This document shows positions 13,651 to 50,337 of a stretch of DNA of 64,000 nt, in pieces. Each line of letters begins with the position of its first letter. The first letter of the stretch is position 1. A program made the translations under genes and the position numbers. This DNA comes from Telmatactis stephensoni. Taxonomy: Eukaryota > Cnidaria > Anthozoa > Actiniaria > Isophelliidae. The notes below the pieces were generated by a model. The model worked only from the letters and a program-made list of their open reading frames with translations, was not told where the DNA came from and ran no database searches. The stretch is taken from positions 461,501 to 525,500 of the forward strand of contig JALIZF010001715.1 of NCBI GenBank assembly GCA_029948255.1, written 5' to 3'.

Positions 13651-15428
13651 GTTGTGTTGTGAGACGTAATCAAATACGTCATCTATTACCGTGACGTCAT
13701 TAGGTGTTGACGTCATTAGTTGATTAGTAACTATGAAGTCATTATTTAACTTCACGAGGTGGAGTTTTAATATTTGGATACTGTCAGAAGCAAGGAGGCC
13801 AAGATGTGCTATTTATACGAAAAAAGACGGGTCTTGTTTTGTTAGAGCTTAAAATTAGATACAATTTTATTCATTGTAAAAGGAATCAGAGCCGCTCATT
13901 GTTTGGGCTTCCTGTGATTTAACAAGCGCTATGCCCCAGTCTCTATCAACAAACATAATAAAGATGGCGGACATTTTGTAGATTTGTGGATGATTTGTGG
14001 ACAGTTTTGGGATTTAATATGATAGGGGAAGCATTTCTTGTTGCAAGCTGCAGTCTGTTTGTCTTCTGCAGTGTTTATGAAGTTAGAAAATGTACAGGAT
14101 ATGTGGTATTTCATGCTATTTGTAAGTATGCTGCTATTACATGTATGTCACCCATGCTTTGAAAGTTCGAAATGTCTCCGTGTCCGACAGTCGGATAGGG
14201 TTTCTCAACTCCGTGTCCGACAATCAATTTTTTTTAAATTACAAGAGATCGACTGATTTAATTGGGAATCAACCATTAAGATTTCAATAAGATGGTCCAG
14301 CTCTTTAATTTGAGTGCCGTTAATTTCAATCAGAATTATCGGTTAGAGCTCGGCTCTCTATAGCCAAATCGACATTGGAGCGGGCACTTAGAAATTTTTT
14401 GACATGTTTAGCAACTGTCGGATGCGGATACTAAAATACTCCGTGTCTGACAGCCGTAAATTTTGAATCCTTTCGCATATTCCTGTAGTTATTTAACGTA
14501 AAACATAAACTAATTATAACAAATTGAAGATGGTTTTGAGTTGTCTGTCCTCTTATTGACACACTCTTGACGTCATAAAATGTTCAAAACTCAAGTGGAA
14601 TCACGATCGCAGCGAGCTTTTATATGATAGTTGTATTATACATATGCAGATTTAAGTACTGACTGTACTGACTGTTGCAAGTGCACTGTCTTTGTCATTG
14701 TCTTTTTCAAATTGTTTGTTTTTAAGATGGTGACACATATATGCGCTCTCTGGGCGATTGGCTGAAAAATCTATGAACTATTTCCCCATAGGCTGCACGG
14801 CTCTGTTTTTAACATTTTACAATCCTTGCCAGAATGGTTGGCACGATTTGTCTTTATAGCGCGCACAATGCATTTTCCTGTTATTTATTGCCCCACTCCC
14901 CCCTTTTCAATGTTGGAGTGCACCTACCAGTCTAAACAGTCTCAGTCATTAGCACACTCTAAAGCAACCATCAACATTGATTTAAGGGGGAGGAGGATGC
15001 ACAAATACAAGTACAAAGTGCATTTTATAATGAGTCCCTAACATTTTCACATCGGACCAACTCTTTTTGGCAAAGATTGTAGGTGTTCCATGCACCCATT
15101 GCATTATAGACACATGAGAGCAAATATAAAGAACAATTAACAAACATAAGAGTGGCACGAGGCGTATAGCCGAGTATATTTTCTCTTGTATGTCTATAAC
15201 GCCATGGGCGCGTGGCTTTCTGTTGTCTAATATTGATAAATAATTATTAACAAGTACATAGGTAGTTGTTGAAATGAAGACTTTCTCTTTCAGTAATATT
15301 CATATCATCCTCCAATAATAGTGTTATAAAATGGTCAGAAAACCTTGATCACATAAAACTCAGGTAAAGTAACCCTATAACCAGTCAGATAGTTACATGT
15401 ATCTTACATGCTCACAATAGTCTTGCAA
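13651..15428. other. intergenic, scattered short repeats
   Basis: This is the upstream side of the Ly6-type gene. Tandem-like recurrences of CTCCGTGTC[CT]GACAG[TC]CG occur at about 14176, 14210 and 14440. A weak hairpin spans 15098-15209 (ATTATAGACACATGAGAG against CTCTTGTATGTCTATAAC). No coding exon is supported. Confidence 0.4.
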
Positions 15429-15530
15429 TATTCACTTACCTCAATAATCCTCATTTCTTTGTTTGATATTCATGTTCACTTCAAACAAAGAATTTTCTGT
15501 ATTGGAAAAGTATTGAGGCAAGTGAATAAG
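15429..15530. repeat. inverted repeat, about 40-bp arms
   Basis: TATTCACTTACCTCAATA on the left and TATTGAGGCAAGTGAATA on the right pair closely. TTTCTTTGTTTGA and TCAAACAAAG extend the pairing inward. Probably a very short MITE. Confidence 0.6.
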
Positions 15531-15761
15531 GTCTGTGAGAGTCATTTAGCCTTTTATTTGTCAACCCAGCATAGCTGGAGCTACAGTGGATTTCATATGA
15601 CTGGGAAAAACAGCCAATGACAGGACAGTTACTTTTACAAAATTTTATATATAGATATATGGCACTGACACGATCCTGGTACAACGTAGCATGTTTCCCA
15701 CTCATATGAAAACCTTTTTAAATGTAGATACCTAAGAGATTATTAATCAACTTGTCAAAGG

Positions 15762-16071
15762 TACCGTATTTACTCGAATAAGCGCCTCCCCCGAATAAGC
15801 GCCCCCTTTGGACAAAAAAAATTAATAAGCGCCTCCCCCGAATAAGCGCCTCGCACCTCGTTATAGTATAATAATACCAATACTGTTGTAGTAGTATAAC
15901 ATTGATATTATTGATATTAAAAGAAAAGCATATACGTTGACAGTTGTGTACGCGTTTTCCTCCTGCTGAATAAGCGCCTCCCTCGAATAAGCGCCTCCCC
16001 CGAATAAGCGCCCCGTTTTAGATGTGAAAAATTTAATAAGCGCCGGGGCGCTTATTCGAGTAAATACGGTA
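15762..16071. mobile_element. palindromic MITE with TACCGTATTTACTCGAATAA ends
   Basis: The left end TACCGTATTTACTCGAATAA is exactly mirrored at 16052-16071. The inside holds six or more degenerate repeats of CGAATAAGCGCC[TC]C. This end sequence is a widespread animal MITE type. There is no coding frame. Confidence 0.88.
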
Positions 16072-16762
16072 TGCGGTTTTCTGTCAAACCAAACACACAT
16101 CTTTTACGATCTCTAACTAAGATAATGTCATAAACTGTCTTGAATCCAGCCATTGATGTCACCATACATGTATATACAGCGACTTGTAACATTGTGTTGT
16201 GTTTTCTGGTGGTTTTAGACCTGGCAGTGATTCTGGTATCGTCTTGGGTTGTTTGTTGGTTCCCATGGTAATAACAAGTCAGGTTTATATGCTTAGACAT
16301 ACTAAACACAACACTGATCTCTTAGGTATGTAAACATGCAACTTAAGGTACAATTATACATGCACAAAGTAAAGTTGTGCATCTTGTGCAATATTATTTA
16401 GTTACAGTTACAGGGTAGAAAACTATTGGAACAAGGGGAGTGAGGCAAACAATAACTGTTTATCAGGCTACATGCAAGTTGCATACCAAACGATGCTCAT
16501 ATCAACCATCCACTCACAAAAAAAAATATTAGTTGTAAAAAGTAAAGAAGACATTAATTTTGTGCTACAAACAAAATTTGCTGTTGCACAGTAAATTGAA
16601 AAGTTTATTTCCCACAACTTACAGTTTGTTTCTGCAAAATGAATTACTACCTGATATACGATATAAGTTCAGAATAATTAATTATTGTTATCAGAAGTAT
16701 AATCAATAATTTGCAATGTCCTGTATTTAGGTACCCTTGAATATTACCTACATGCCTCACAA
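16072..16762. other. region upstream of the recognised DOLK exons
   Basis: The DOLK exon found at 16731/16763 aligns well inside the family, so further 5' exons should lie here or further upstream. A hydrophobic open stretch at about 16163-16265 ends in a possible GTAATA donor but lacks a start codon, so it is not called. A splice acceptor (CTGTATTTAG) ends at 16730. Confidence 0.35.
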
Positions 16763-17386
16763 ATGATGGGTATGTTTGTGGTATCCATTCTTCTGCTGTT
16801 CAACAAGGCAAGAAGATCTCTGTCCTGGGTTATGTTGGTTTTGACTACAGTATGTATGGCAGCCACTCTTAACACTCAAGCAGGTTTGTGATGGCAATAC
16901 TAACAGTAGCACATGACCTTTATACAGCAATCTTACATTTCCTTTTCCATCAAATTTAGATGTGAAGATCAGCAGCCTCGTAGGGCTTGTAGTACTCTTC
17001 ATTGCTTTCCTTGTGTTTTTGCTCTGGTTGTTTCCTAAAAGTTTTAGTCTTTGTGAAGCTATGTTGATTACACAAGCTTGTCTTTTACTTGCTGTGGATT
17101 CTTGGACATCAATAGGAAGTAGGGTAAGAGCTTATAAGATGCATTTAGCAGCAGCGAATCTAGTCCTTTTGAAAGGGGGTGTGCACCTTTTTACAAAACA
17201 CGTTGGTGGAGGTGTAACTTCCTCAAACCCCTTCTAAAGTAACCTCACAGGGCTTCAGCAAGCCATAAAATTCGGAGGGACTAAAACAACCTACACGTAT
17301 TATCACGATTAACAATTATAATGAAACCAACAACAAACATTTAGAAAGTAAGGCTTTGTAAAAGTATATTGTCCAACATGTTTAAC

Positions 17387-17449
<63 letters not shown>

Positions 17450-20400
17450 TGAAAGAGAGAGAAAGAAAAAAATTAGTGGGCCCAACTGAAAAGATCCCCC
17501 CTTTGGATCTGCTGCTGTCTAATTTAACCTATTACCAACAACCTACTGACACCCTACCAACAACCTACTGACACCCTACCAACAACCTACTGACACCCTA
17601 CCAACAACCTACTGACACCCTACCAACAACCTACTGACATCTTACCAACAACCTACTGACACCCTACCAACAACCTACTGACATCCTACCAACAACCTAC
17701 TGACATCTTACCAACAACCTACTGACACCCTACCAACAACTTACTGACACCCTACCAACAACCTACTGACAACCTACCAACAATCTACTGACACCCTACC
17801 AACAACCTACTGACACCCTACCAACAACCTACTGACATCCTACCAACAACCTACTGACAACCTACCAACAATCTACTGACAACCTACCAACAACCTACTG
17901 ACACCCTACCAACAACCTACTGACATCTTACCAACAACCTACTGACACCCTACCAACAACCTACTGACACCCTACCAACAACCTACTGACACCCTACCAA
18001 TAACTAACAATAACCTACAAATTATAACTAGCAATTACTACAATAACTCTAATGATGGCTAACATATAAATAACCTACAGGCAACACACCAGCAACCTAC
18101 TGATAAACTGCAAACAACTTACAAATTTTTTACCAACAACCTTCTGACAACTTACTAACAACCTGCAATCAACTTCTGACAACCTTTTGACAGTACTTTA
18201 AGACAGTTGATTTAACATACCAAACTGCTGTTTCATCATTTCCATTGCAGCTTTATTACATTGCCCCAAGTATTGCTCCACCACCTTATCCTGTGTCAAG
18301 AAGTATTTACACCTATTGGTTACAGGTAATAATCACAACCATTACTTTATTGCTCAATATTTTATAATGTCTGACTGCATGTATACAAACATCAGCAATG
18401 AACAATGAGGCATGTCTCTGTACTGTAACACAGGTACAGGTGTATAAGTTCTAGAGGGCAGGAAAAACAACCTCAGGGATATAAACATAGCCAAGTGTTT
18501 CTTTTTGAGCACCTTGCATTTCCCAGAGTGTACATATCACAGTATCATATACATTTTATACTGTTATAAAGTATTTTTGACATTAGTGAGTATATTGCTG
18601 TCCTCTAGTTTAAACAATGGCAGTCCCAGAATATATCCATCCCCTTCCATGGTAGGGATTGGAAATTCTGGAGGGGAGGGGGTCAGAGAAAGAAAAAATT
18701 ACAGAGTTTCTGTGGAAGTAAATTGGAATTCCAAGGGGAGGAGGTCCAACAGTTACAAATTCCCTCTATATGTAATGGGTCATTACAGTGCTGCGCTTCA
18801 AACCGTTGCCACGTCCACAAAGTTTTTGATTAATTTTTGACATCTGTTTGACAACCTTGAATACCGCTAACCAATTAAATATCGTCGCTTCACTTTGATG
18901 TTTCAATATGATGTACAAACTCCGCCTATCAAGACATCAAAGTGAAGCGCCAGTATCTAATTGGTTAGCGGTATTAAAGTTGTCCAAAAGATGTCAAAAA
19001 GTAATCAAAAACTTTGTGGTAGTGGCAACGGTTCGAGGCGCAGCACTGTAATATTTTCTGGAACTAGACAATTCACTATTTATGATATTCTCTGTAATAT
19101 CCAAGTAAAATATTGCATGGGAACATGGGTATACAAATTGTATCTGATTATTAGGTTGTTAGATTCTGTTGGTAGGGTCACTTTTAACAGGACTTCTACT
19201 CCTTCCAGTCTTTTACTACATCAGTATTGTTAGGTTGGTATATATCTTACATTTGTAATACGATAATAGTAAAAAATAATAATTACTTAATTTTGAAGCC
19301 AGCTGGAAGGTAAAGTACAAATGCAGTTAATCTGATTCAATGTTTTGATCATTAGAAATTCATTGGAGTTATGGATAGGAACCATGTCATTTTACATTGT
19401 CATATTTCTGGTCTTTATCTCGTTTCTGCTTCCATGGACTTACTTGATGCTTGGTGGTGTGAATCCATTGAGTTGGGTGATCCGTTATCTTACATATAAT
19501 ACACAAAGGGTAAGACATAGCATTGCCTATTATCTTACATATAACACACAAAGGGTAAGACATAGCATTGCCTACTATCTTACATATAATACACAAAGGG
19601 TAAGACATAGCATTGCCTATTATCTTACATGTAATACACAAAGGGTAAGACATAGCATTGCCTATTATCTTACATATAACACACAAAGGGTAAGACATAG
19701 CATTGCCTATTATCTTACATATAACACACAAAGGGTAAGACATAGCATTGCCTATTATCTTACATATAATACACAAAGGGTAAGACATAGCATTGCCTAT
19801 TATCTTACATATAATACACAAAGGGTAAGACATAGCATTGCCTATTATCTTACATATAATACACAAAGGGTAAGACATAGCATTGCCTATTATCTTACAT
19901 ATAATACACAAAGGGTAAGACATAGCATTGCCTATTATCTTACATATAATACACAAAGGGTAAGACATAGCATTGCCTATTATCTTACATATAACACACA
20001 AAGGGTAAGACATAGCATTGCCTACTATCTTACATATAATACACAAAGGGTAAGACATAGCATTGCCTATTATCTTACATGTAATACACAAAGGGTAAGA
20101 CATAGCATTGCCTATTATCTTACATATAATACACAAAGGGTAAGACATAGCATTGCCTATTATCTTACATATAATACACAAAGGGTAAGACATAGCATTG
20201 CCTATTATCTTACATATAATACACAAAGGGTAAGACATAGCATTGCCTATTATCTTACATATAACACACAAAGGGTAAGACATAGCATTGCCTATTATCT
20301 TACATATAATACACAAAGGGTAAGACATAGCATTGCCTATTATCTTACATATAATACACAAAGGGTAAGACATAGCATTGCCTATTATCTTACATATAAC

Positions 20401-23400
20401 ACACAAAGGGTAAGACATAGCATTGCCTATTATCTTACATATAATACACAAAGGGTAAGACATAGCATTGCCTATTATCTTACATATAATACACAAAGGG
20501 TAAGACATAGCATTGCCTATTATCTTACATATAACACACAAAGGGTAAGACATAGCATTGCCTACTATCTTACATATAATACACAAAGGGTAAGACATAG
20601 CATTGCCTACTATCTTACATATAATACACAAAGGGTAAGACATAGCATTGCCTATTATCTTACATGTAATACACAAAGGGTAAGACATAGCATTGCCTAT
20701 TATCTTACATATAATACACAAAGGGTAAGACATAGCATTGCCTATTATCTTACATATAATACACAAAGGGTAAGACATAGCATTGCCTATTATCTTACAT
20801 ATAACACACAAAGGGTAAGACATAGCATTGCCTATTATCTTACATATAATACACAAAGGGTAAGACATAGCATTGCCTATTATCTTACATATAATACACA
20901 AAGGGTAAGACATAGCATTGCCTATTATCTTACATATAATACACAAAGGGTAAGACATAGCATTGCCTATTATCTTACATATAATACACAAAGGGTAAGA
21001 CATAGCATTGCCTATTATCTTACATATAATACACAAAGGGTAAGACATAGCATTGCCTATTATCTTACATATAATACACAAAGGGTAAGACATAGCATTG
21101 CCTATTATCTTACATATAATACACAAAGGGTAAGACATAGCATTGCCTATTATCTTACATATAATACACAAAGGGTAAGACATAGCATTGCCTATTATCT
21201 TACATATAATACACAAAGGGTAAGACATAGCATTGCCTATTATCTTACATATAATACACAAAGGGTAAGACATAGCATTGCCTATTATCTTACATATAAC
21301 ACACAAAGGGTAAGACATAGCATTGCCTATTATCTTACATATAATACACAAAGGGTAAGACATAGCATTGCCTATTATCTTACATATAATACACAAAGGG
21401 TAAGACATAGCATTGCCTATTATCTTACATATAACACACAAAGGGTAAGACATAGCATTGCCTATTATCTTACATATAATACACAAAGGGTAAGACATAG
21501 CATTGCCTATTATCTTACATATAATACACAAAGGGTAAGACATAGCATTGCCTATTATCTTACATATAATACACAAAGGGTAAGACATATACATGTACAT
21601 TGCCTAGTGTAATTGCCTATCAATGCCATTCTTTATAAACCAACTACCTACTCACCACAACCTACTCATGGTACCCACAACCTTACTATCAACCTACCCG
21701 CAACTGATACCCTATCAGCAACCTACTGACACCCTACCAACAACCTACTGACACCCTACCAACAACCTACATGTACTGACAACCTACCAACAACCTATGT
21801 ACCACCTATCCACAACTTTACTAGCAATCTACTAATGCACTTCACTTGCTGCATAAAGCCTCTTCATGTTCTACAATGTAGCTAGAAACTAGTTCTAAAA
21901 ACAATGCCAGTAGCAAGCTAAGTGTAACCCATATAACCTTAAGGTGCAGTAATACAAGCAACAAAATCATGCAACTTGTCGCGCAACATTGTTTTTTTGA
22001 AGTTGTAGAGTGATGTTATATTATTTAATAAAAGTTGGTAACCATCATTAAGAAAAGTTGAGTTAGCTATAGTTAAATGTTCTGATGAGACAGCTAGCTA
22101 CCGATATTAGGTTAACTAATATCTATTTTATGTACAGTCCTACCTAGTGATATACTGGTCATTTATTAATAACTAATATGTATTTTATGTACAGTCCTAC
22201 CTAGTGACGTACTGGTCATTTATTAATAACTAATATATATTTTATGTACAGTCCTACCTAGTGACGTACTGGTCATTTATTACATTACTATCACTTGCTG
22301 TGGTGCTGATTAAGAATTCTACAAGTAAGACAGCACAATCTACAACCATTGCTCGCAAGTACTTCCATTTACTGGCCATTGCTGTGTTTCTTCCTGGTAT
22401 TATACTTGAACCACAACTTACACATCTTGCTGCGTCTGGTGCTATTGCAGCATTTATGTTTATAGAGGTAACTCAGTGACCCATTATTATGCTCTGTTAG
22501 GTTCTTAGAGGGGGTTTTCATAGGAATGGGAAAGTTACTGCACCATACAGTAACCATATCAGTGACGTAATATCTATAAAAATTCCTGCTGTAACTGTGA
22601 CCATGCCATATTACCAATCATATGAAATCAGTTCTGTTTGTACCATACCTCCATTGAAATCTTAGCTTTTGTGACATTTGCCTTGTTCTTATTTTAATTA
22701 GTATGTACGCATTGGAAGAATAATGCCTTTGGGGCACATTTTACATGATAGCCTACAAGTCTTCCTGGATGAGAAAGATACAGGATATGTAATTTTATCT
22801 CACATTTATCTTTTACTTGGCTGTGCTCTTCCTATCTGGCTTTATCCTGGGGATATATTAGACACCACCAAACAAGGTGAGCACTTGTATTATTTTGAAC
22901 AGCTTGCAGGGGAGTGTGAAACACACATGATTGTCTCAGTGCCATGTTTGTCTATAAAGACATTCAAAAATTTTGCTGACATAACAATGCTATGCCAAGA
23001 TCCTGGAGGATGCCTGCTGGTGGTATCATTAACATGCATCAATGTATGAAGTACCATAACAGTTTATTATTGAAAACATTTTTAATGTGATTTTAGATAA
23101 AGCAACTACTCCAACCAAGGCCAACCAACAAATTTTCATATTTTGTATATTTTTGAAGCTTAACAACAGAATATTGGCAACTTCCTACAGTCAAAAATGC
23201 TTCTTGTTCCATCTTGATGTGGTTCGTACACATACCAAGCAAATTATATGCATTTTAAGGAAACATGAAACTTTTGTAGAGATTATTTTGTTGCACAATT
23301 ATTTGCATGAAAATTTGTTTGGGTGCCTTGATTGGACTAGTCGTACTGTATGAATGAAAGAAATTGAAGACTACAAAGTGACTCATTCATTCAATACCAA

Positions 23401-26340
23401 TCACTTATTGCCTAGACAGGTCCAGACTCACAAGACCCACACATTTAATATCTTCTTCTCTGTCCTTTTGGATTTAATATCTCATATTAAGGTGGCTCAA
23501 TCCAATTTTCAAGTAGAGCTACCAGTCGTCTTTGAGTGAAAACTATTTGTTCATGAACAGTCTGATAGTAAATTAAGTATTGTACCCTTACCAGACAAAG
23601 ATCAAAGTTTATGATGACGTATGTTATATGGAGATCGGCGCTATTATGGCGACGCCTTAAAAGAATTCCCCTTTTTACACATTCTCGATTTTAATGAGTT
23701 CTAGGCTTATTCTTGAAAAATGCTCTTGTGATCTTGTAGTTAACATCATTGCCTTTAGCTCTAGTGAATTAAATCAAATTCTGAGAGAGCATTTTCGAAA
23801 TATCATCGATGAGAGATTTTAACTGCAAAAATCGAGCGTAAACAAAACTTTTTAAATCTCCAACAATTAAAAAGAAAGAAGCACATCTAAGTTAATTTTT
23901 CATCTCAAATTGTTGTAAAGATATCAAATTTGGCTACTGAAAGAGACGAGAGAAATCACATTGATTGATATCGAGAAAAGTGAGCCGAACTCATGTATAT
24001 GGACATGCTGGATTTGCTTCTGTTGCCCAAATTTCGTTCTATTGTTACATAAACTGCAATACTTAAAGATCCCTTCGATAAATATTGTTTAAAAATTAGT
24101 ATGGTTTAGTTTAGGTAATAGTTGATATGATATAGCGTTTTCAAATTCATTGAATCATTTTACGGCTGTAAAATATTAGCCTCAAATCAGTATATTTTTT
24201 CAGCTGGATACAGTGGTCGACAACTCATTGATGCATGATGTAGCTCCATTGTTTTAGTTTGTCATGTTTTCATGCATTCTAGCACCTGATGCAAATTGCG
24301 GAATGTTTCAATACCTTCTGATCACTCTTCCGAGACTTAACACTTCCTAACACTTCTCTCGTCTTCTTACAATTCCCGCGTGCTTCTATAACTCAACATA
24401 GCACGCTGCCTCGTTTTCTATTTCTACACTCAAAGACGACTGGTAGCTCTACTTGAAAATTGGATCGAGCCACCTTAAATATATACAAAGCAATCATACT
24501 AAATAAATTCAATCAGATTGTTCTGAGAGCTTGGACCTCACCAATTGATGCTCACAAACTCCTGACACTACTTATATAGCACTCATTAGCATTTTGGAAC
24601 CCAGGCCTCTTGCTCGCATAGGAATGCATTTCTTTCTCCATTCCAATTTGCAAGCTCCTTGTTCATTACAAGAGAAATGCTATTAACATTCACATTGTAT
24701 TCATTAGCATCAACATCCATCATTACAATCATCAACATCATCTTATAATTATCAAGTGATTCTGGCTGTATTGTTTCAGCTTCTATGTTGGGCCTTTACT
24801 CAGGAATAGTCAGTCTAGGTGTTGGTGATACAGTAGCATCTTATATAGGCAAGAAATTTGGCAAGCATACCTGGCCTGGTGAGTACTTAAAATTAGGATT
24901 GCTTTAAAAAAAGACTGTTACTTTTGACAGTTTGGTTGTAGTTCTTTAGTATCCATCAGGCATAGGCTATGGGCTTCTTTGTGTTAAGTACTTGTGTACT
25001 TGATGTAATGTTTTGTCTCTTGCAGGCAGTGCCAAAACCATAGAGGGTACAGTAGCTGGTTTTATGGCACAATTGATTTACATTGCTGTGTTATCCTATG
25101 CAGGTACATATTAAAGTTAACTCCCGGGGGGGGGGGGGCACTTGTTCCGGATCTGATGGGGACGTGCTGCCCAGCCTCCTCAAACCTGACCCTGTTTAAG
25201 ACACCTAAATTCTCGAAAACGATACCCTATATAAGACAAGAGGGCATTTTAGGGACCCTATTTAAGACTGTGAGGAAAATTGTACATTAAAAAAAGAATA
25301 GGTGGTTTTAGTCCATTAATATTTTAATTACGTCGCTAGTATGCTAACATCAAGCAATACCTTCGTCACCAAAAGTTGGCCTCGAATATTACACTATTTG
25401 AAAAAAATTGACCCTGTTTAAGACAATTTATTGTAAAATCTATACCTTGTCTAAGACCGCAGGAGCTAAAATCACGACCCTGACGGGCGGCACGTCCCCG
25501 TATAGTAAATATATGCAAGTGCCCCCCCCCCCCGGGAGTTAACTCTTCCTTTTGTAAGATGAAAAGCATAGTTTAATTAATTGGCAAGTAATGAGACTAG
25601 AGAGTGAACTGATTTGAGCTGTGTCAGTGTGTAAGTAAGGGGATGAATGGAAACCTGAAACCATATAAAAGAGATAACTTACTGACATTTTGAGTCTAGG
25701 CCCAGTGAAGGCTTAGGCTGAAACCACAGTAAGTTATGGTGTTACAAATTTCCATTCATCCCTTATTGTAGCAAGCAAACTAGTTTGGCTGTGTTGGTGT
25801 ATATAGAGAAAATAAGGATGAATCAAAATATAAATAGAGTACTTACATTAGTGACATTTTGAGCCCTTCATTGATATAAAAGAAAATTCATGGGTGGGTT
25901 TATATAGAAGGGAGGGACTCCAGTATATTTTTGGCAGGGATGGGATTTAAAAGGTCATAAAAAGAAATTAGATAGTAGGAAAGTGAGAAATGAGAGAATA
26001 ATAAAAATATCAGTTTATTGAATAAATTCATGCCTTTAACTTGGTGAATGTCCATGAGATTTATTTTTGTAACATTTAATGTTTTATCTAATGTATAATA
26101 CTGTACATGTATGCGATCCAAGATAACTAATAATATTAAACTAAGTTGTGACATCATCAACTTTGTGCATCCTAACAATATTTTTATCTTTTGTCTGCAG
26201 ATCTGGTAATTATAACAAACTGGATGACAGTATCAGTTTGTTTGATTGCAACATCTCTACTTGAAGCATGGACAACTCAGATAGATAACCTAGTTTTGCC
26301 TCCTTTTCTGTTTTCACTAATTTTGACATCTTGTTTGTAA
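16763..26340 (+). CDS. DOLK: dolichol kinase, at least 9 exons
   Basis: CTP-dependent ER membrane kinase making dolichyl phosphate, the lipid carrier for N-glycosylation and related pathways. Exons: 16763(or 16731)-16883, 16960-17123, 18251-18325, 19369-19509, 22252-22467, 22702-22876, 24780-24878, 25026-25103, 26201-26340; all phases agree and the coding sum from 16763 is 402 aa plus stop. Family signatures are I-A-R-K-Y-F-H-L, the P-L-G-H block, L-D-E-K-D-T-G, H-I-Y-L-L-L-G then P-I-W-L, the catalytic or CTP-binding G-V-G-D314-[15 protein letters not shown], and the end [13 protein letters not shown]. Many hydrophobic membrane spans are visible. Human DOLK is 538 aa, so about 130 N-terminal residues are not found; the ATG at 16763 may be internal. 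The exon 19369 start is set by phase and is less sure. Exon 4 ends inside a minisatellite. Confidence 0.9.
17391..17466. repeat. (GA)n microsatellite
   Basis: GA dinucleotides, with a few AA interruptions at the right end, in a DOLK intron. Confidence 0.95.
17533..18001 (+). repeat. 22-bp minisatellite, about 21 units, in a DOLK intron
   Basis: The unit is CCAACAACCTACTGACACCC plus TA. Variants have ACATCC, ACATCT or ACAACC in the last third. The array decays into related ACAACCT text to about 18180. A short second block of the same unit lies at 21714-21800, beyond the next exon. Confidence 0.93.
18783..19051. mobile_element. 269-bp MITE with TTACAGTGCTGCGC ends
   Basis: TTACAGTGCTGCGCTTCAAA at the left mirrors GAGGCGCAGCACTGTAA at the right. 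The pairing continues through CCGTTGCCAC, CAAAGTTTTTGATTA, ACATCT and TACCGCTAACCAATTA, leaving a short loop near 18915. It lies in the DOLK intron just before the exon at 19369. Confidence 0.88.
19486..21590 (+). repeat. 45-bp minisatellite made of an exon end plus its splice donor, 47 units
   Basis: Each 45-bp unit has 24 nt of DOLK coding sequence (TATCTTACATATAA then TACACAAAGG, encoding Y-L-T-Y-N-T-Q-R) followed by 21 nt beginning GTAAGACATAG. The first unit is the real exon end (19509/19510). The last GTAAGA is at 21580, and the spacing from 19510 is exactly 46 x 45 bp. Units differ at few sites: AAT or AAC, CCTAT or CCTAC, and three units (19621, 20071, 20656) with ACATGTAAT, a Tyr to Cys change. 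Because 45 is divisible by three and no stop occurs, the whole array is open in the DOLK frame; the intron part would read V-R-H-S-I-A-Y. The minus strand is open too. Which of the 47 donors is used cannot be told from sequence. Confidence 0.96.
21660..21800 (+). repeat. second block of the 22-bp minisatellite
   Basis: About four degenerate units of CCAACAACCTACTGACA type, matching 17533-18001. It lies directly downstream of the 45-bp array in the same gene. Confidence 0.75.
22114..22281 (+). repeat. 57-bp triplication of a splice acceptor and exon start in DOLK
   Basis: Units begin at 22114, 22171 and 22228. Each has TTTTATGTACAG followed by TCCTACCTAGTGA. Acceptor junctions are therefore at 22138, 22195 and 22252. 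Only the third continues into the DOLK exon (S-Y-L-V-T-Y-W-S-F). The first two read into S-F-I-N-N then TAA. Confidence 0.93.
23487..24478. mobile_element. 992-bp non-autonomous DNA transposon in a DOLK intron
   Basis: Ends of about 52 bp are inverted copies. The left reads TTAAGGTGGCTCAATCCAAT then TTTCAAGTAGAGCTACCAGT. The right ends ATTGGATCGAGCCACCTTAA, with two mismatches. No transposase frame lies inside. Confidence 0.9.
25117..25542. mobile_element. MITE flanked by TTAA, piggyBac-like target
   Basis: The element (25121-25538) has ends CTCCCGGGGG and CCCCCGGGAG with G/C runs of 11-13. It is flanked on both sides by TTAA (25117-25120 and 25539-25542). Pairing continues inward through CACTTG, GGGACGTGC[TC]GCCC and CCCTGTTTAAGAC-like blocks. 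TTAA duplication is the mark of piggyBac-type transposition. It starts 13 bp after a DOLK splice donor (25104). Confidence 0.82.
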
Positions 26341-30700: not shown

Positions 30701-33700
30701 CACATACATAAATGTACATTGACTTTAAAAATGAAAGTTAGATCAAGATTGTGTATAGTTTACATTGTGTTATAAATATTTCAGAATTGAAAATGATGGT
30801 AAGTGCTAGCACAGTCATTAATTGGGTTCAAATAATATCACAATTATTGTGATAAAAGCTACACCAATATACTTGCATATGCTTCAGAACAGCTAGTATG
30901 CACATTTATAATTTAAGACTGTAATATCTAGTATTTTAGGATAAAAGGTTGTGCTAATTCATTTTTGTGGTATTATACTGTACACAGAACACGAAGAAGA
31001 CAAAATGGTGAAACTAAAAAATTTGTTTCCGTAATTCAGTTACATTTTTGCAAGCAGAAAAATGAGAAAAAACTATATTGTACGTACTACGAAGATGAAA
31101 GGCTTGCCTTTAATTTTTTATCATTTGAAAAGATAAAATTCTCTCTTTCATTTTGTAGAATTATTATACATTTACAAATTGACATACATTTATGACATTA
31201 TAGAGTCATTTTTATTTTTTCCAAGCCTGTTTTTTGGCTTCAAATACATTTATTAATAAACTTATAAATGTATATGTAAGAAAATACACTTATTTGAGCT
31301 TGCTTATTTCAAAAAGCAGCTCATAATAGTACTTATTTTTGTTTTTGAAATCAGCAGTGTAGTCTTCAAAGTATGTGTATTGCTTTGTTGCTAGTAAAGT
31401 ACATGACATCCATAGCTCATTTTTAAGTTTAGCCATGGTCTTTATGTTGGCTGGTGCATATAGTAATAGCTTAATGTTTGAATGAGACAACTCTGGCCTT
31501 GTCAGCTTGAGTTGTATAGCAATTAAGACTTTGCTGAATAGGAAATCATCCAGTGATTTGTAGGTCATGAGAAAACAAATATGATTTTTATTTAACTTAT
31601 TAGATTTCTAGGTGATAAATCTGTTTCAACAAACATTATAGACTGTCTGACATCTGAATCTGAGTGAGACGAAAGCAAATTGTTGGTAAGAACATAGAAT
31701 GAATTACAATATATTAAAGTGATAAGAGTATGAATGGATGATATTATGCATATTTAAAGATAAAAGACTCATTCTCACAATTCTATTTGGTCTCAGATTC
31801 AGATTTAGATTCAGATTCAGATATCAGACCGTCTCCCTTTTTTGAAACAGGTATATACTATACAATTGTTCTAAGATTACAACCTGGTTAACCATATGTA
31901 TTTAATCACCTGAGTAGAGGTACATCTCACAGGATGATCCATATCTATTAGGTACTGTAAGCAACCACAACCATGGCATTTGGAAGACCAAAAGCATTTA
32001 AGTGGTTGTTCATTTTCACTTGCAACTAACAAGACTCAGATTTTTTGAAATAAAAAATAACTAAAAAAGAAATGAATGGGTCAAAATGAAAATGTCGTAA
32101 CTGATGATTTGGATGATTTTTCAAGATTAAAAAAAAAACGATTCAAATTGGTTTAAAATGGTATCGTTGGGCTTCTCTCAACCTAAACATCAATATCCCT
32201 GGGTTAGGGTTAGGGTTTTTTTTAACCAAAAACTTCAAGAAAGCCTGAAATTATTGGCTAACAACAGTCTGGCCTTTCTGAACAATGGACTGGTCTGTGA
32301 AAGTAGTTGTTATTCAAATTTTCTCTTCTTGCCACTTACTATACTAATTTATTTAATGGCTTTGAAGTCATTCTTTCCAAGCAAAAACACAGCAAATATC
32401 TTGTAATTTCTCCTACTTGATCTGGATATTTCTTCAAATAGATACATGTAGTCAGACATTGATTTTTTGGCTCAGTGAAGTCAATTATCAAATGCCATTC
32501 TGAACCCAGTATTTAAAAAGTTGAAAAATCACCCAAAATGTTATGGGTTATGGGTAGTTTTCATTTTGACCTGTTCAAATGATCTGGCTTGAAAAATATA
32601 CTGGTTTATGTCCTCACGTTTCTGTTTGTCCACAAAGTGTGAAATCTAGAGTACCGTTGATTTGTTATCAGCTTTTCTCATGCATTTATAATGCATTTAT
32701 AATTGTATTTCCTAATTAAGGCCACTGTAATATCACCATTATCATCTTCACTGTGTGTTTGCTTAATATCCAGCCTATTATTATTCTATGTAGTAATCAA
32801 TTAATGGACTGGTTTTCAGCCTTTAGATGACTATTCTGATCCATGGGATGCCCAACGACAACCTCCATTAAGTGCTGATGATTACTGTGACCCTGTTGAC
32901 ATGTCAAAACACCCACACCTTCCCAAAGAGAAACAACTTGATGACTACAGTGACCCTTGGGACTCTCGGCAAGGACATATTGCTAAACCCAAAGCCAATA
33001 CAACAGGTGTTAGAGATGAATACATTGACCCATGGGATGCTCAAGGTCCACCTGTTCCTAGTCCACAGCCTGCTAAGGATTCAGATGAAGAAAGTTACAC
33101 AGAACCATATGACACTGGCAAGGTAACAGTACTGGATGAACAAGCTAAGAAGATGTCTCTGAGAGGAATGAGGCTGCCTTCTACTGGTAGTGAGTCAGGA
33201 GGCTCTGATCAATTTAGAAGGTGAGCTACTTAATGTGGCATTAGAATGGCATATGAATGATGGTTGTTACAATGTAGTTCAGGGAGTGGAAATATACTCA
33301 GGACTGGGATTTTTTTAGGTTTTATTTCCACTCTATTGAATTATAATCAAATATTAGAAATAGGGTTCACATCTAAGTCACTTTGATTTAATTTGATTTT
33401 TGTTTTTCAAATTTATACTTGTATATGCGATAAGGAATATTTTTAGATATTAAATTTTTATGAAAAATGGCCTACTGAAACTATCAGTCTCATAAAAGCA
33501 GAGAGCTTCCTGGTAAATTTAAACAAATTAAACTTTGATTATTTCAGACCTCAAACCCAGACAGAAGATACCAGACCTGTTGATGATTATGAATCACCTT
33601 GGGAAAGTAGAGGACTAATAAAACCACAACCCTCTCAAAAAACATTTCAAAATCAAATGCCTACACAAGATAGCAGACCATCTGACGACTATGACAAACC

Positions 33701-36700
33701 ATGGGAATGGACAGCAAAGAAGAGTCCCCACTATACTGGTCCTACTTCTCATGAAATTCCTTCTGTTAACAAAGCAATAAGTCAAGCGCCCAGGGGAGAT
33801 GCACGACCTCCTGACGATTATGATGCACCATGGGAATACAACAAACGATCAAGTCAACTAGTATCCATGGCAACCCAGCAAACCAAAACAGACAGTCATA
33901 TCCCATCAAAGCCACCACGAGGGGTTGTAGACAACAGTAACCATAGTAACAAGGGTATTGGTATTGATACGTCCAAGCCTCTTGAGAAACAGCCGTAAGT
34001 TTCAATTTTCCTGTCAGTAACACATGGCTTAATCTAGATAACTATCATTACACAACAAATCCCAGCATTTATACATTATAATATTTGTCAATATGCTTGT
34101 GAAGGTAAACAGTGGCTGAGGTTGGTTTTGAAACAGATGTTTGAAAATGCATTACTGTCTGCAAAGGACTTTTATCTTTATTTGTGATGCGTGGCAATAC
34201 TTGTATATTTAAATTGTGACTTTGTGTAGGTGGTACCATGGGCCATTAACAAGAGTTGAAGCTGAATGTCTGCTCAAGTATGAAGAAGACTGCTCATTTT
34301 TAGTCCGAGACAGTGAAAGTAGCAGAAAAGATTATTCTTTGTCTTTAAAGTAAGTTTGCATTCTTACTGATTGATTCTTTCAGTTGCTCACCTAACTCTT
34401 ATCACATTTTTGATCCCAAATTCTAATACTTTTGTTTTTAAAACTGGCAAACATTCACTTTCTAATTTAAGGTTCTCAAGTACATTAAGGCCTGGGATTT
34501 TAAGGCATTTGCTCAAAAATGAAAAATTGCCTGAAATGCAGTCCAGCCTCAAAGGATTTTTTGCTGAATAACAATTTTTGTTGAACTTAACATTTTGGCA
34601 TAGGTTTCATAATGGGAGATTGCATGGTCACGTGACCTGTTACATGTACATCAGAAAACACGTTTTTCAATCTCAGGTGGCGAAGACAACACGAACTTTA
34701 AATGTTCTTACATTTTTAGAGTTGTGTTAAGGTATTGTATATGGATCTGTCTTGGCTGCTTGTTCACCATTTTTAATTAATTAGATATTCAGGTTAATTT
34801 GAAAAATGATCGAGGTCACGTGACCTATTCTACATATTATCTCTTTAACGAAGATAGATAGTCAAGCAGCTAAGACAGTATCATTATCTACACCTAGAAA
34901 GAACTCTAAAACTATTTATTATATGATTGAGTCGGTTTTCTTTGTTATTTGTAGGACTTTATATCGCGTATTTCCCTAGTCATTAATGAATTCAAGGGCA
35001 TTATACAGATATTGCCCTCGCCCCATACTTCCCTAGGTCATCTTAATTTGGATGTTAGACTTAGAAATTTTCTATTGAGCCCCGAAATCATACACTAAGT
35101 AGCCAATTTTGGTGAAAAAATCTCTTGAGAAATAACTTTAGGATTCAAACCCCAGACCTTCTGCATACCTATACCCGCCTTTAACCTTTATACTACTGAG
35201 CTAACTGATGGAAACTTATCAACAAAAAATCGTTTTGTCTGTTATAATAGTGTTCGTTAACTTCACCATGAATAGAATTGAAAAGCATTTGTTTAAGATT
35301 TCCTTCTGGGAATTCAGTAACAATGATCAGATAGTTAATGTCATTTGGGATTGTTTTAGTGTGAAAACCTCCTCAATCATATAATAAGCCAGTTAATACC
35401 ATGATCACCTCGGGATCTATTGTTTTTGGAGGGACGTTTAATCGCTAACATCCCTCCCTCATGAATAGAAAGAGGGAAAATTAGTTCTAATATTCCCTCA
35501 TTAATTATGAATGAGGGATGATTAGAACTAATCGTCCCTCATCCATAATTAATGAGGGACAATTAGAACTAATCGTCCCTCATGTTATTCATGAGTGGTT
35601 GTCCCTCATTTACGCAATCATCGGGACGATCGGGACAACTTTGCACGCTGTCCCGAAACTCTATAACTTTCTAACGCACCGATACCTCTTACCACTGCAC
35701 ACTCTTACGCGTGTGGGATCTATGCATTCTATTTTGCGCATGAGCATAACGACAAAAAGAAAGCATTTAGCTTTCGAATTGATTAACAACCTATAAATAC
35801 TTGTTCATTGTAAGTATATAACAAAGAAATCTATTTTCGAAAGTCCCCAGAGAACAGGGTTATGCACAATTGGTAAAAGAATTGTATAATATTTTCAAGT
35901 TTTGGATGAACAAACAGCGAAGTATATTCCGTTTATTTCCTCGGTGATCATGGTATTACAAAGTAATACCATGACTTCTTCGGGATATTAGTGATTAAAT
36001 GTCCCCTCAGCCTCGGGAGGTTTAGTAAAAGTCCAAAAACTTCCACTAAACCTCCCTCGGCTTCGGGGACATTTAATCACTAATATCCCTCAGGGTCATG
36101 GTATTACTTATAATAATTACCTCAACCTCGGCATTAAGCCATATAGATCCCTCGGGCCTATGACCCTCGGGATCTATATGGTTTAATGCCTTGGTCTTCA
36201 GTAATTAACTCTGACATAAACCACTATGGTTTGGTTGTCTATACCACCGGAGAGCTAAAAATTTGATTTATGACGTCACAGGTCACGTGACTGATCTTAT
36301 GTGATAAAAATGGCACCAAAATGTTGTGTTTATCGAAATAAATGGTTTTGTTAGAAATCAATTTATCTTTTGTATTATAACAATCTAAGTCAATTTTTTA
36401 TCATTTTGGGCATATCCCAGGCCTTAACGTACTTGAGTTGTTCCAGAGCCTAGATTTCTTCAGTAAATTGCCTTTAAAATCGATATCCTGTCATTTAAAG
36501 ATAATTGTTAGGCAAGTCAAAAACCAAGAAAAAAGAGGGGGTCACTGTATTGGTTACTTAGCTATAAGATGTCAGTGTTCATTTACATTGACCAAAAATT
36601 CAAAGAGTGTGCTTGTATGCTGTGTGTATATTCAAAGGTCACAGCGTATATGTGTCCTTTAATGGCCTGTGACAGCATATATGATGGTTATTTTAGAATG

Positions 36701-49493: not shown

Positions 49494-49995
49494 AGCCACT
49501 ACCACTACCACTACCACTACCCCCACCACCACCACTACCACTACCACTACCACTACCACTACCACTACCACTACCACTACCACTACCACTACCACTACCA
49601 CTACCACTACCACTACCACTACCACTACCACTACCACTACCACTACCACTACCACTACCACTACCACTACCACTACCACTACCACTACCACTACCACTAC
49701 CACTACCACTACCACTACCACTACCACTACCACTACCACTACCACTACCACTACCACTACCACTACCACTACCACATACCACTACCACTACCACTACCAC
49801 TACCACCTACCACTACCACTACCACTACCACTACCACTACCACTACCACTACCACTACCACTACCACTATCCCATATCACTACCACTACCACTACCCAAC
49901 TACCATCTACACCACTACCCATTAACCACTACCCTACTACACTACCTACTACCACTACCACTACCACTACCACTACCACTACTACTACTACTACA

Positions 49996-50045
<50 letters not shown>

Positions 50046-50097
50046 CACTACCACTACCACTACCACTACTACTACTACTACTACAACTACTACTACA

Positions 50098-50165
<68 letters not shown>

Positions 50166-50238
50166 CACTACCACTACTACCACTACTACTACTACTACCA
50201 CTACCACTACCACTACCACTACTACTACTACTACTACA

Positions 50239-50337
<99 letters not shown>

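Follow-up and report, generated by a model that had tools for sequence, protein, structure and literature searches.

Dolichol kinase locus

The window, by which we mean the whole stretch of 64,000 nucleotides that was analysed, carries on its + strand a gene for dolichol kinase (DOLK), a housekeeping enzyme needed for sugar-chain building. Searches with tblastn using the proteins of eight relatives placed the exons in order and with open reading, from about 14019 to 26334. The protein query was made by joining exons by eye, with two N-terminal exons and one short exon left out, and yielded 56 relatives at E ≤ 0.001 in a search that scored only the 8000 candidates with most shared words. The top match was the dolichol kinase of Exaiptasia diaphana (E 6.2e-112, 63% identity across 69% of the query), followed by an unnamed protein and then by Nematostella, Desmophyllum and Dendronephthya sequences; several of the 56 are unnamed, and the weakest may not be dolichol kinases. 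These matches point to a probable anthozoan source, perhaps a sea anemone. Homology to named dolichol kinases thus extends along the length of the gene, with 56 matches and ordered exons, and the host gene named in the original prediction is borne out. A 285-residue part of the joined protein matched no Pfam family in a local library that may lack or miss PF28421.1, the label on most of the relatives found, and a profile of the family alignment had no match among PDB sequences at E ≤ 0.001. Exon borders were set by eye and lie in places 1 to 4 nt from the provisional ones. The features are as follows, with a slash marking the exon–intron border in short motifs.

Near 14019 and 16214, and about 16745–16883, 16960–17123 and 18251–18325, + strand: upstream DOLK exons (first two by tblastn)
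19163–19233, + strand: DOLK exon before the array exon, 23 residues plus (R) (by eye; weak 10-residue tblastn match, E 0.78)
19356–19509, + strand: DOLK exon in its minimal form (donor 1), 154 nt, the final 24 nt being the exon part of unit 1 (start by eye)
19486–21590 (TRF: 19485–21589), + strand: donor array, 47 units of 45 nt, each with AGG/GTAAGA (TRF and exact search)
19510–19511, + strand: donor 1 (GT), predicted to yield the conserved protein (exact search, alignment of relatives)
21580–21581, + strand: donor 47 (GT), the final one of the array (exact search)
21610–21612, + strand: first in-frame stop under intron retention, a TAG directly 3′ of the array (ORF and joining computation)
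21703–21816, + strand: 22-nt repeats in the array's intron, of the same family as those at 17533–18004 (TRF)
22113–22290, + strand: 57-nt unit, 3.1 copies, across the acceptor, with exon starts at 22138, 22195 and 22252 (TRF and exact search)
22252–22467, + strand: DOLK exon after the array intron, with the sole open-frame acceptor of three (tblastn and joining computation)
22702–22876, 24780–24878, 25026–25103 and 26201–26340 (with stop), + strand: last four DOLK exons (borders by eye, 1 to 3 nt from the provisional ones)

A minisatellite across an exon–intron border

TRF reported the donor array with period 45, 46.8 copies, 98% matches, 0% indels and a score of 4091, that is, as tandem head-to-tail units within the size range of minisatellites (roughly 10–100 nt). 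Exact search found CACAAAGGGTAAGA 47 times at a step of exactly 45, with the first donor G at 19510 and the last at 21580; when units are read from 19486, CACAAAGG/GTAAGA is kept in 47 of 47. Both the division of the unit into 24 nt of exon and 21 nt of intron and the retention of the donor in every unit, as originally proposed, were reproduced by this search, with no indels. Units 1–46 vary at three positions, none in the donor: offsets 10 (A/G), 14 (T/C) and 44 (T/C), counted from 0. Codon by codon in the DOLK frame, two of these variants leave the residue unchanged and the third replaces Tyr with Cys, a residue present in the ORF. Unit 47 departs from the repeat after GTAAGACATA. Outside the array, GGGTAAGA has one more + strand copy in the window, at 17123/17124, which is the donor of another DOLK exon.

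Since a single assembly is the source, the array might be an assembly expansion of one or a few real units. We consider this highly improbable: the array sits in a contig of 632,534 bases, its 2.1 kb are free of indels and carry internal variants in non-periodic order, and this length is short enough for a single long read. The original statement that the splice site has become a VNTR goes beyond these data, in which the array occurs at one place in one assembly; the locus is at most a candidate VNTR.

The exon part of each unit contains TCTTAC, the exact reverse complement of GTAAGA, so that donors could pair with neighbouring exon parts. A hairpin masking the donors was rejected, since the RNA of 19441–19755 did not fold better than its shuffled versions (z −0.43), 30 of 100 of which equalled or surpassed it. 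For 19486–19800, the complementary DNA strand exceeded its shuffles in stability (z −2.49; 1 of 100), a possible aid to slippage. The array is also open in one frame of the reverse strand, a reading that was discounted, the DOLK exons being on the + strand.

At the other end of the intron, a 57-nt unit repeated 3.1 times spans the acceptor. The three acceptor copies each carry TACAG/TCCTACC by exact search and, by eye, a branch-point-like ACTAAT. Both ends of one DOLK intron are therefore tandemly multiplied, the donor 47-fold and the acceptor threefold; the original prediction had the repeated donor and overlooked the triplicated acceptor. A 961-base piece 3′ of the array (22240–23200) matches the 483.5-Mb assembly over its full length at one place, and the 41 further matches listed, the two acceptor copies among them, are short and 70–96% identical (40 of 169 candidates scored). 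The same 22-nt repeat family, ACTGACACCCTACCAACAACCT, was reported by TRF in two different DOLK introns (17533–18004 and 21703–21816), with a branch-point-like CTGAC occurring 21 times in the 472 nt of the first and 3 times in the 114 nt of the second. DOLK introns also hold inverted-repeat elements at 18782–19052 and 23487–24478, with arms of 77 nt at 90% and 52 nt at 98%, which we take to resemble MITEs.

To place the array against its genomic background, we ran TRF on 19 stretches of 10 kb from the same assembly. These gave 25 rows, overlapping ones included, of 15–100-nt units present in 3 or more copies; three rows had 10 or more copies, with a maximum of 11.8, and none of the 25 had GGTAAGA or GGTAAGT in its consensus unit on either strand. 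The array is thus a copy-number outlier on this small sample of 19 stretches. Next in size in this comparison comes an array of 21.5 copies at 17533–18004, likewise in a DOLK intron; the neighbourhood is therefore repeat-rich, which favours an ordinary mutational origin. We estimate that an array of 2.1 kb placed in a gene this rich in exons would frequently overlap a junction, and that even the 178-nt acceptor array would not rarely do so; the position alone is therefore unremarkable, and what stands out is the copy number together with the frame-keeping unit. Elsewhere in the window, TRF reported about 636 tandem copies of the tetranucleotide TATG (459–2997) and, at 49496–50337, about 133 of the hexanucleotide CCACTA, after which comes CTG x 10.7. 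Open stretches at 32805–33224 and 33447–33998 contain repeated DDYxxPW-like motifs and are perhaps, we presume, exons of an SH2-adaptor-like protein; the former had no Pfam match.

Equal donors in one reading frame

The predicted U1 duplex energy of the array donor is −8.9 kcal/mol in every unit. Of 4081 + strand GT sites, a set that includes the 47 of the array, 1.8% equal or exceed this strength; within 19357–22251, which has 100 GT sites, the strongest one outside the array reaches −8.0, after 21943. Judged by sequence alone, none of the 47 donors would be favoured, donor 1 included, because the donor sequences are identical. Their conservation in all units says little on selection, since the units are near-identical copies and probably recent.

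The number of strong sites could also suggest that the 47 donors form a landing array for U1 snRNP on the nascent transcript, for example to shield a long intron against premature 3′ end formation, while splicing itself takes place at donor 1. Such a role would fit 47 strong U1 matches within 2.1 kb and a donor core unchanged in 47 of 47 units. However, the other unit positions are nearly unchanged too and so give no sign of donor selection; a 315-base query from the array matched this array alone in the assembly, leaving no second such array there; and the exact unit was absent from two sequence collections that do not hold animal genomes as such. We regard this role as highly improbable.

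Next, donors and acceptors were joined computationally. The unit comprises 15 codons without a stop in the DOLK frame, the only one of the three + frames in which it is open. Joined to the acceptor at 22252, 47 of 47 donors keep the frame open, each further unit adding 15 residues, and none of the 47 does so with the acceptor at 22138 or 22195, where a stop follows at the 13th codon past the junction (counted for donor 1). The original choice of 22252 as the acceptor was correct, and of the three this one alone has an open frame. A retained intron meets a stop at 21610. Splicing from any unit had been called formally possible; all 47 would be in frame, a consequence of the codon-multiple length of the unit, which had been overlooked. 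Shuffling the unit 20000 times left a given frame open in 27% of cases, so a frame-keeping unit is not improbable in itself (27% times one in three for the length) and constitutes weak evidence.

Forty-seven identical and strong donors, all in frame with the third acceptor and built from a unit open in this + frame only, raise the prospect that donor choice is spread over the array. The outcome would be an in-frame ladder of dolichol kinases with n × 15 additional residues in one inter-helix loop, and the array length would tune the amount of normal enzyme. Against this stand the weakness of openness as evidence, given the shuffles above and the one-in-three chance of a period divisible by three, and a search for public proteins resembling the repeat ORF, which returned none at E ≤ 0.001 (14 candidates). 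Loop length across the relatives, described below, also argues against the ladder, and we judge it unlikely. A bolder form of the idea, which we hold to be very unlikely, would turn the DOLK 5′ splice site into a frame-keeping dial of 47 steps, with the length of the array and the choice of donor setting the amount of normal enzyme. Isoforms extended in one membrane loop would accompany it, and the locus would be a heritable and rapidly mutable tuner of N-glycosylation capacity.

Conservation singles out the first donor

The product of joining donor 1 to acceptor 3 shows no gap at the junction against 13 relatives chosen from the 56 matches. We then measured, in the alignment of all 56, the stretch from Trp169 before the junction to Trp187 after it (query numbering). 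Trp occupies both anchor columns in 44 of 56 sequences; in the remaining 12, one or both columns hold a different residue or a gap. The stretch is 19 residues in the query and in 39 of 56 matches (38 with both anchor columns filled), 20 in nine, 18 in three, 17 in two and 21 in one; 54 of 56 therefore fall within 17–21 residues, with outliers of 29 and 14, one each. An extension by 15 residues or more would be foreign to nearly all 56 relatives, and this near-fixed loop length runs counter to the ladder of isoforms. The comparison of proteins points to donor 1 as the donor kept by selection. The original prediction missed this distinction: the relatives mark out donor 1 as the one giving the normal protein.

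Together, these observations lead us to suggest, at a probability of roughly two in three, that the array is a young, border-straddling minisatellite that is normally removed as intron, with the most upstream donor used. A 45-nt segment spanning the last part of a DOLK exon and the first part of its intron would have undergone tandem duplication; unequal exchange or slippage would then have raised the number to 47 copies, probably recently. Duplication of blocks within the array was tried as a route: the longest repeated variant block was reached by 3674 of 5000 shuffles, so the variant blocks give no support to a particular expansion route. In normal splicing, donor 1 (19510) would be joined to acceptor 3 (22252), and the other 46 donors would leave with the intron, as would the two upstream acceptor copies. 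Counting against this preference, donor 47 would give a shorter intron. Tolerance of the array may reflect an intact border next to the upstream exon and, as a safety margin, a frame that would stay open if splicing slipped to a later donor.

Comparison with known systems

The closest parallel is human coagulation factor VII (F7), whose intron 7 repeat exists in a handful of copies and is the same repeat as that called HVR4; Borensztajn 2006 is reportedly the primary paper on the F7 donor repeats. According to the matching passages of one source, F7 intron 7 holds 37-bp repeats, the first unit carrying the authentic 5′ splice site and the others being highly homologous to that unit, and the most upstream donor alone was reported to be used (PMC6627357). 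Passages of a second describe the variable tandem repeat HVR4 with alleles H5, H6 and H7 (PMC3166910), and those of a third a mutation in F7 intron 7 without mention of repeats (PMC10572768). In the portions seen of PMC3778950, PMC12783039, PMC2576457 and PMC10572768, no precedent like the DOLK array was found; nor did the open literature, among the matches listed and as far as their excerpts go, hold an account of this DOLK locus or a donor array this large.

Border repeats of other kinds are known. Human segmental-duplication paralogs have variable internal tandem repeats at exon–intron boundaries, averaging 4 copies of 30 bp (PMC2812944, in part). They resemble the DOLK array as border minisatellites altering an exon or intron, but in that excerpt they are discussed as forming new introns at borders, whereas the DOLK array multiplies an existing border. 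In potato RdRp, a tandem duplication with splice signals lies in coding sequence, where multiples of three are said to allow retention (PMC4974935, in part); on that account it is alike in touching splice signals, but the DOLK array needs no new intron and copies one donor.

Extending the most-upstream rule of F7 to the DOLK array is our inference, and a mammalian rule may not hold in this animal; if it does, the array would simply be intron. Either way, the locus shows that the border of a constrained gene can carry a 2.1-kb repeat. It also sets up a natural competition between 47 identical, equally spaced, in-frame donors and one usable acceptor, which could reveal whether an animal this distant obeys the F7 rule, distributes its choice over the donors or prefers the shortest intron (672 nt from donor 47 versus 2742 from donor 1). 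As far as the F7 excerpts allow, both systems are minisatellites with the authentic donor in the first unit and near-copies in the rest, "authentic" resting here on protein conservation. The repeated donor as a kind therefore has its precedent in F7, and the differences lie in size, frame and the doubly repeated intron: the F7 unit of 37 is not a multiple of three, whereas the DOLK unit of 45 nt makes 15 open codons; the DOLK array has 47 copies, in a different gene and probably in a cnidarian rather than a human; and its acceptor is repeated too, a feature not mentioned for F7 in the passages at hand.
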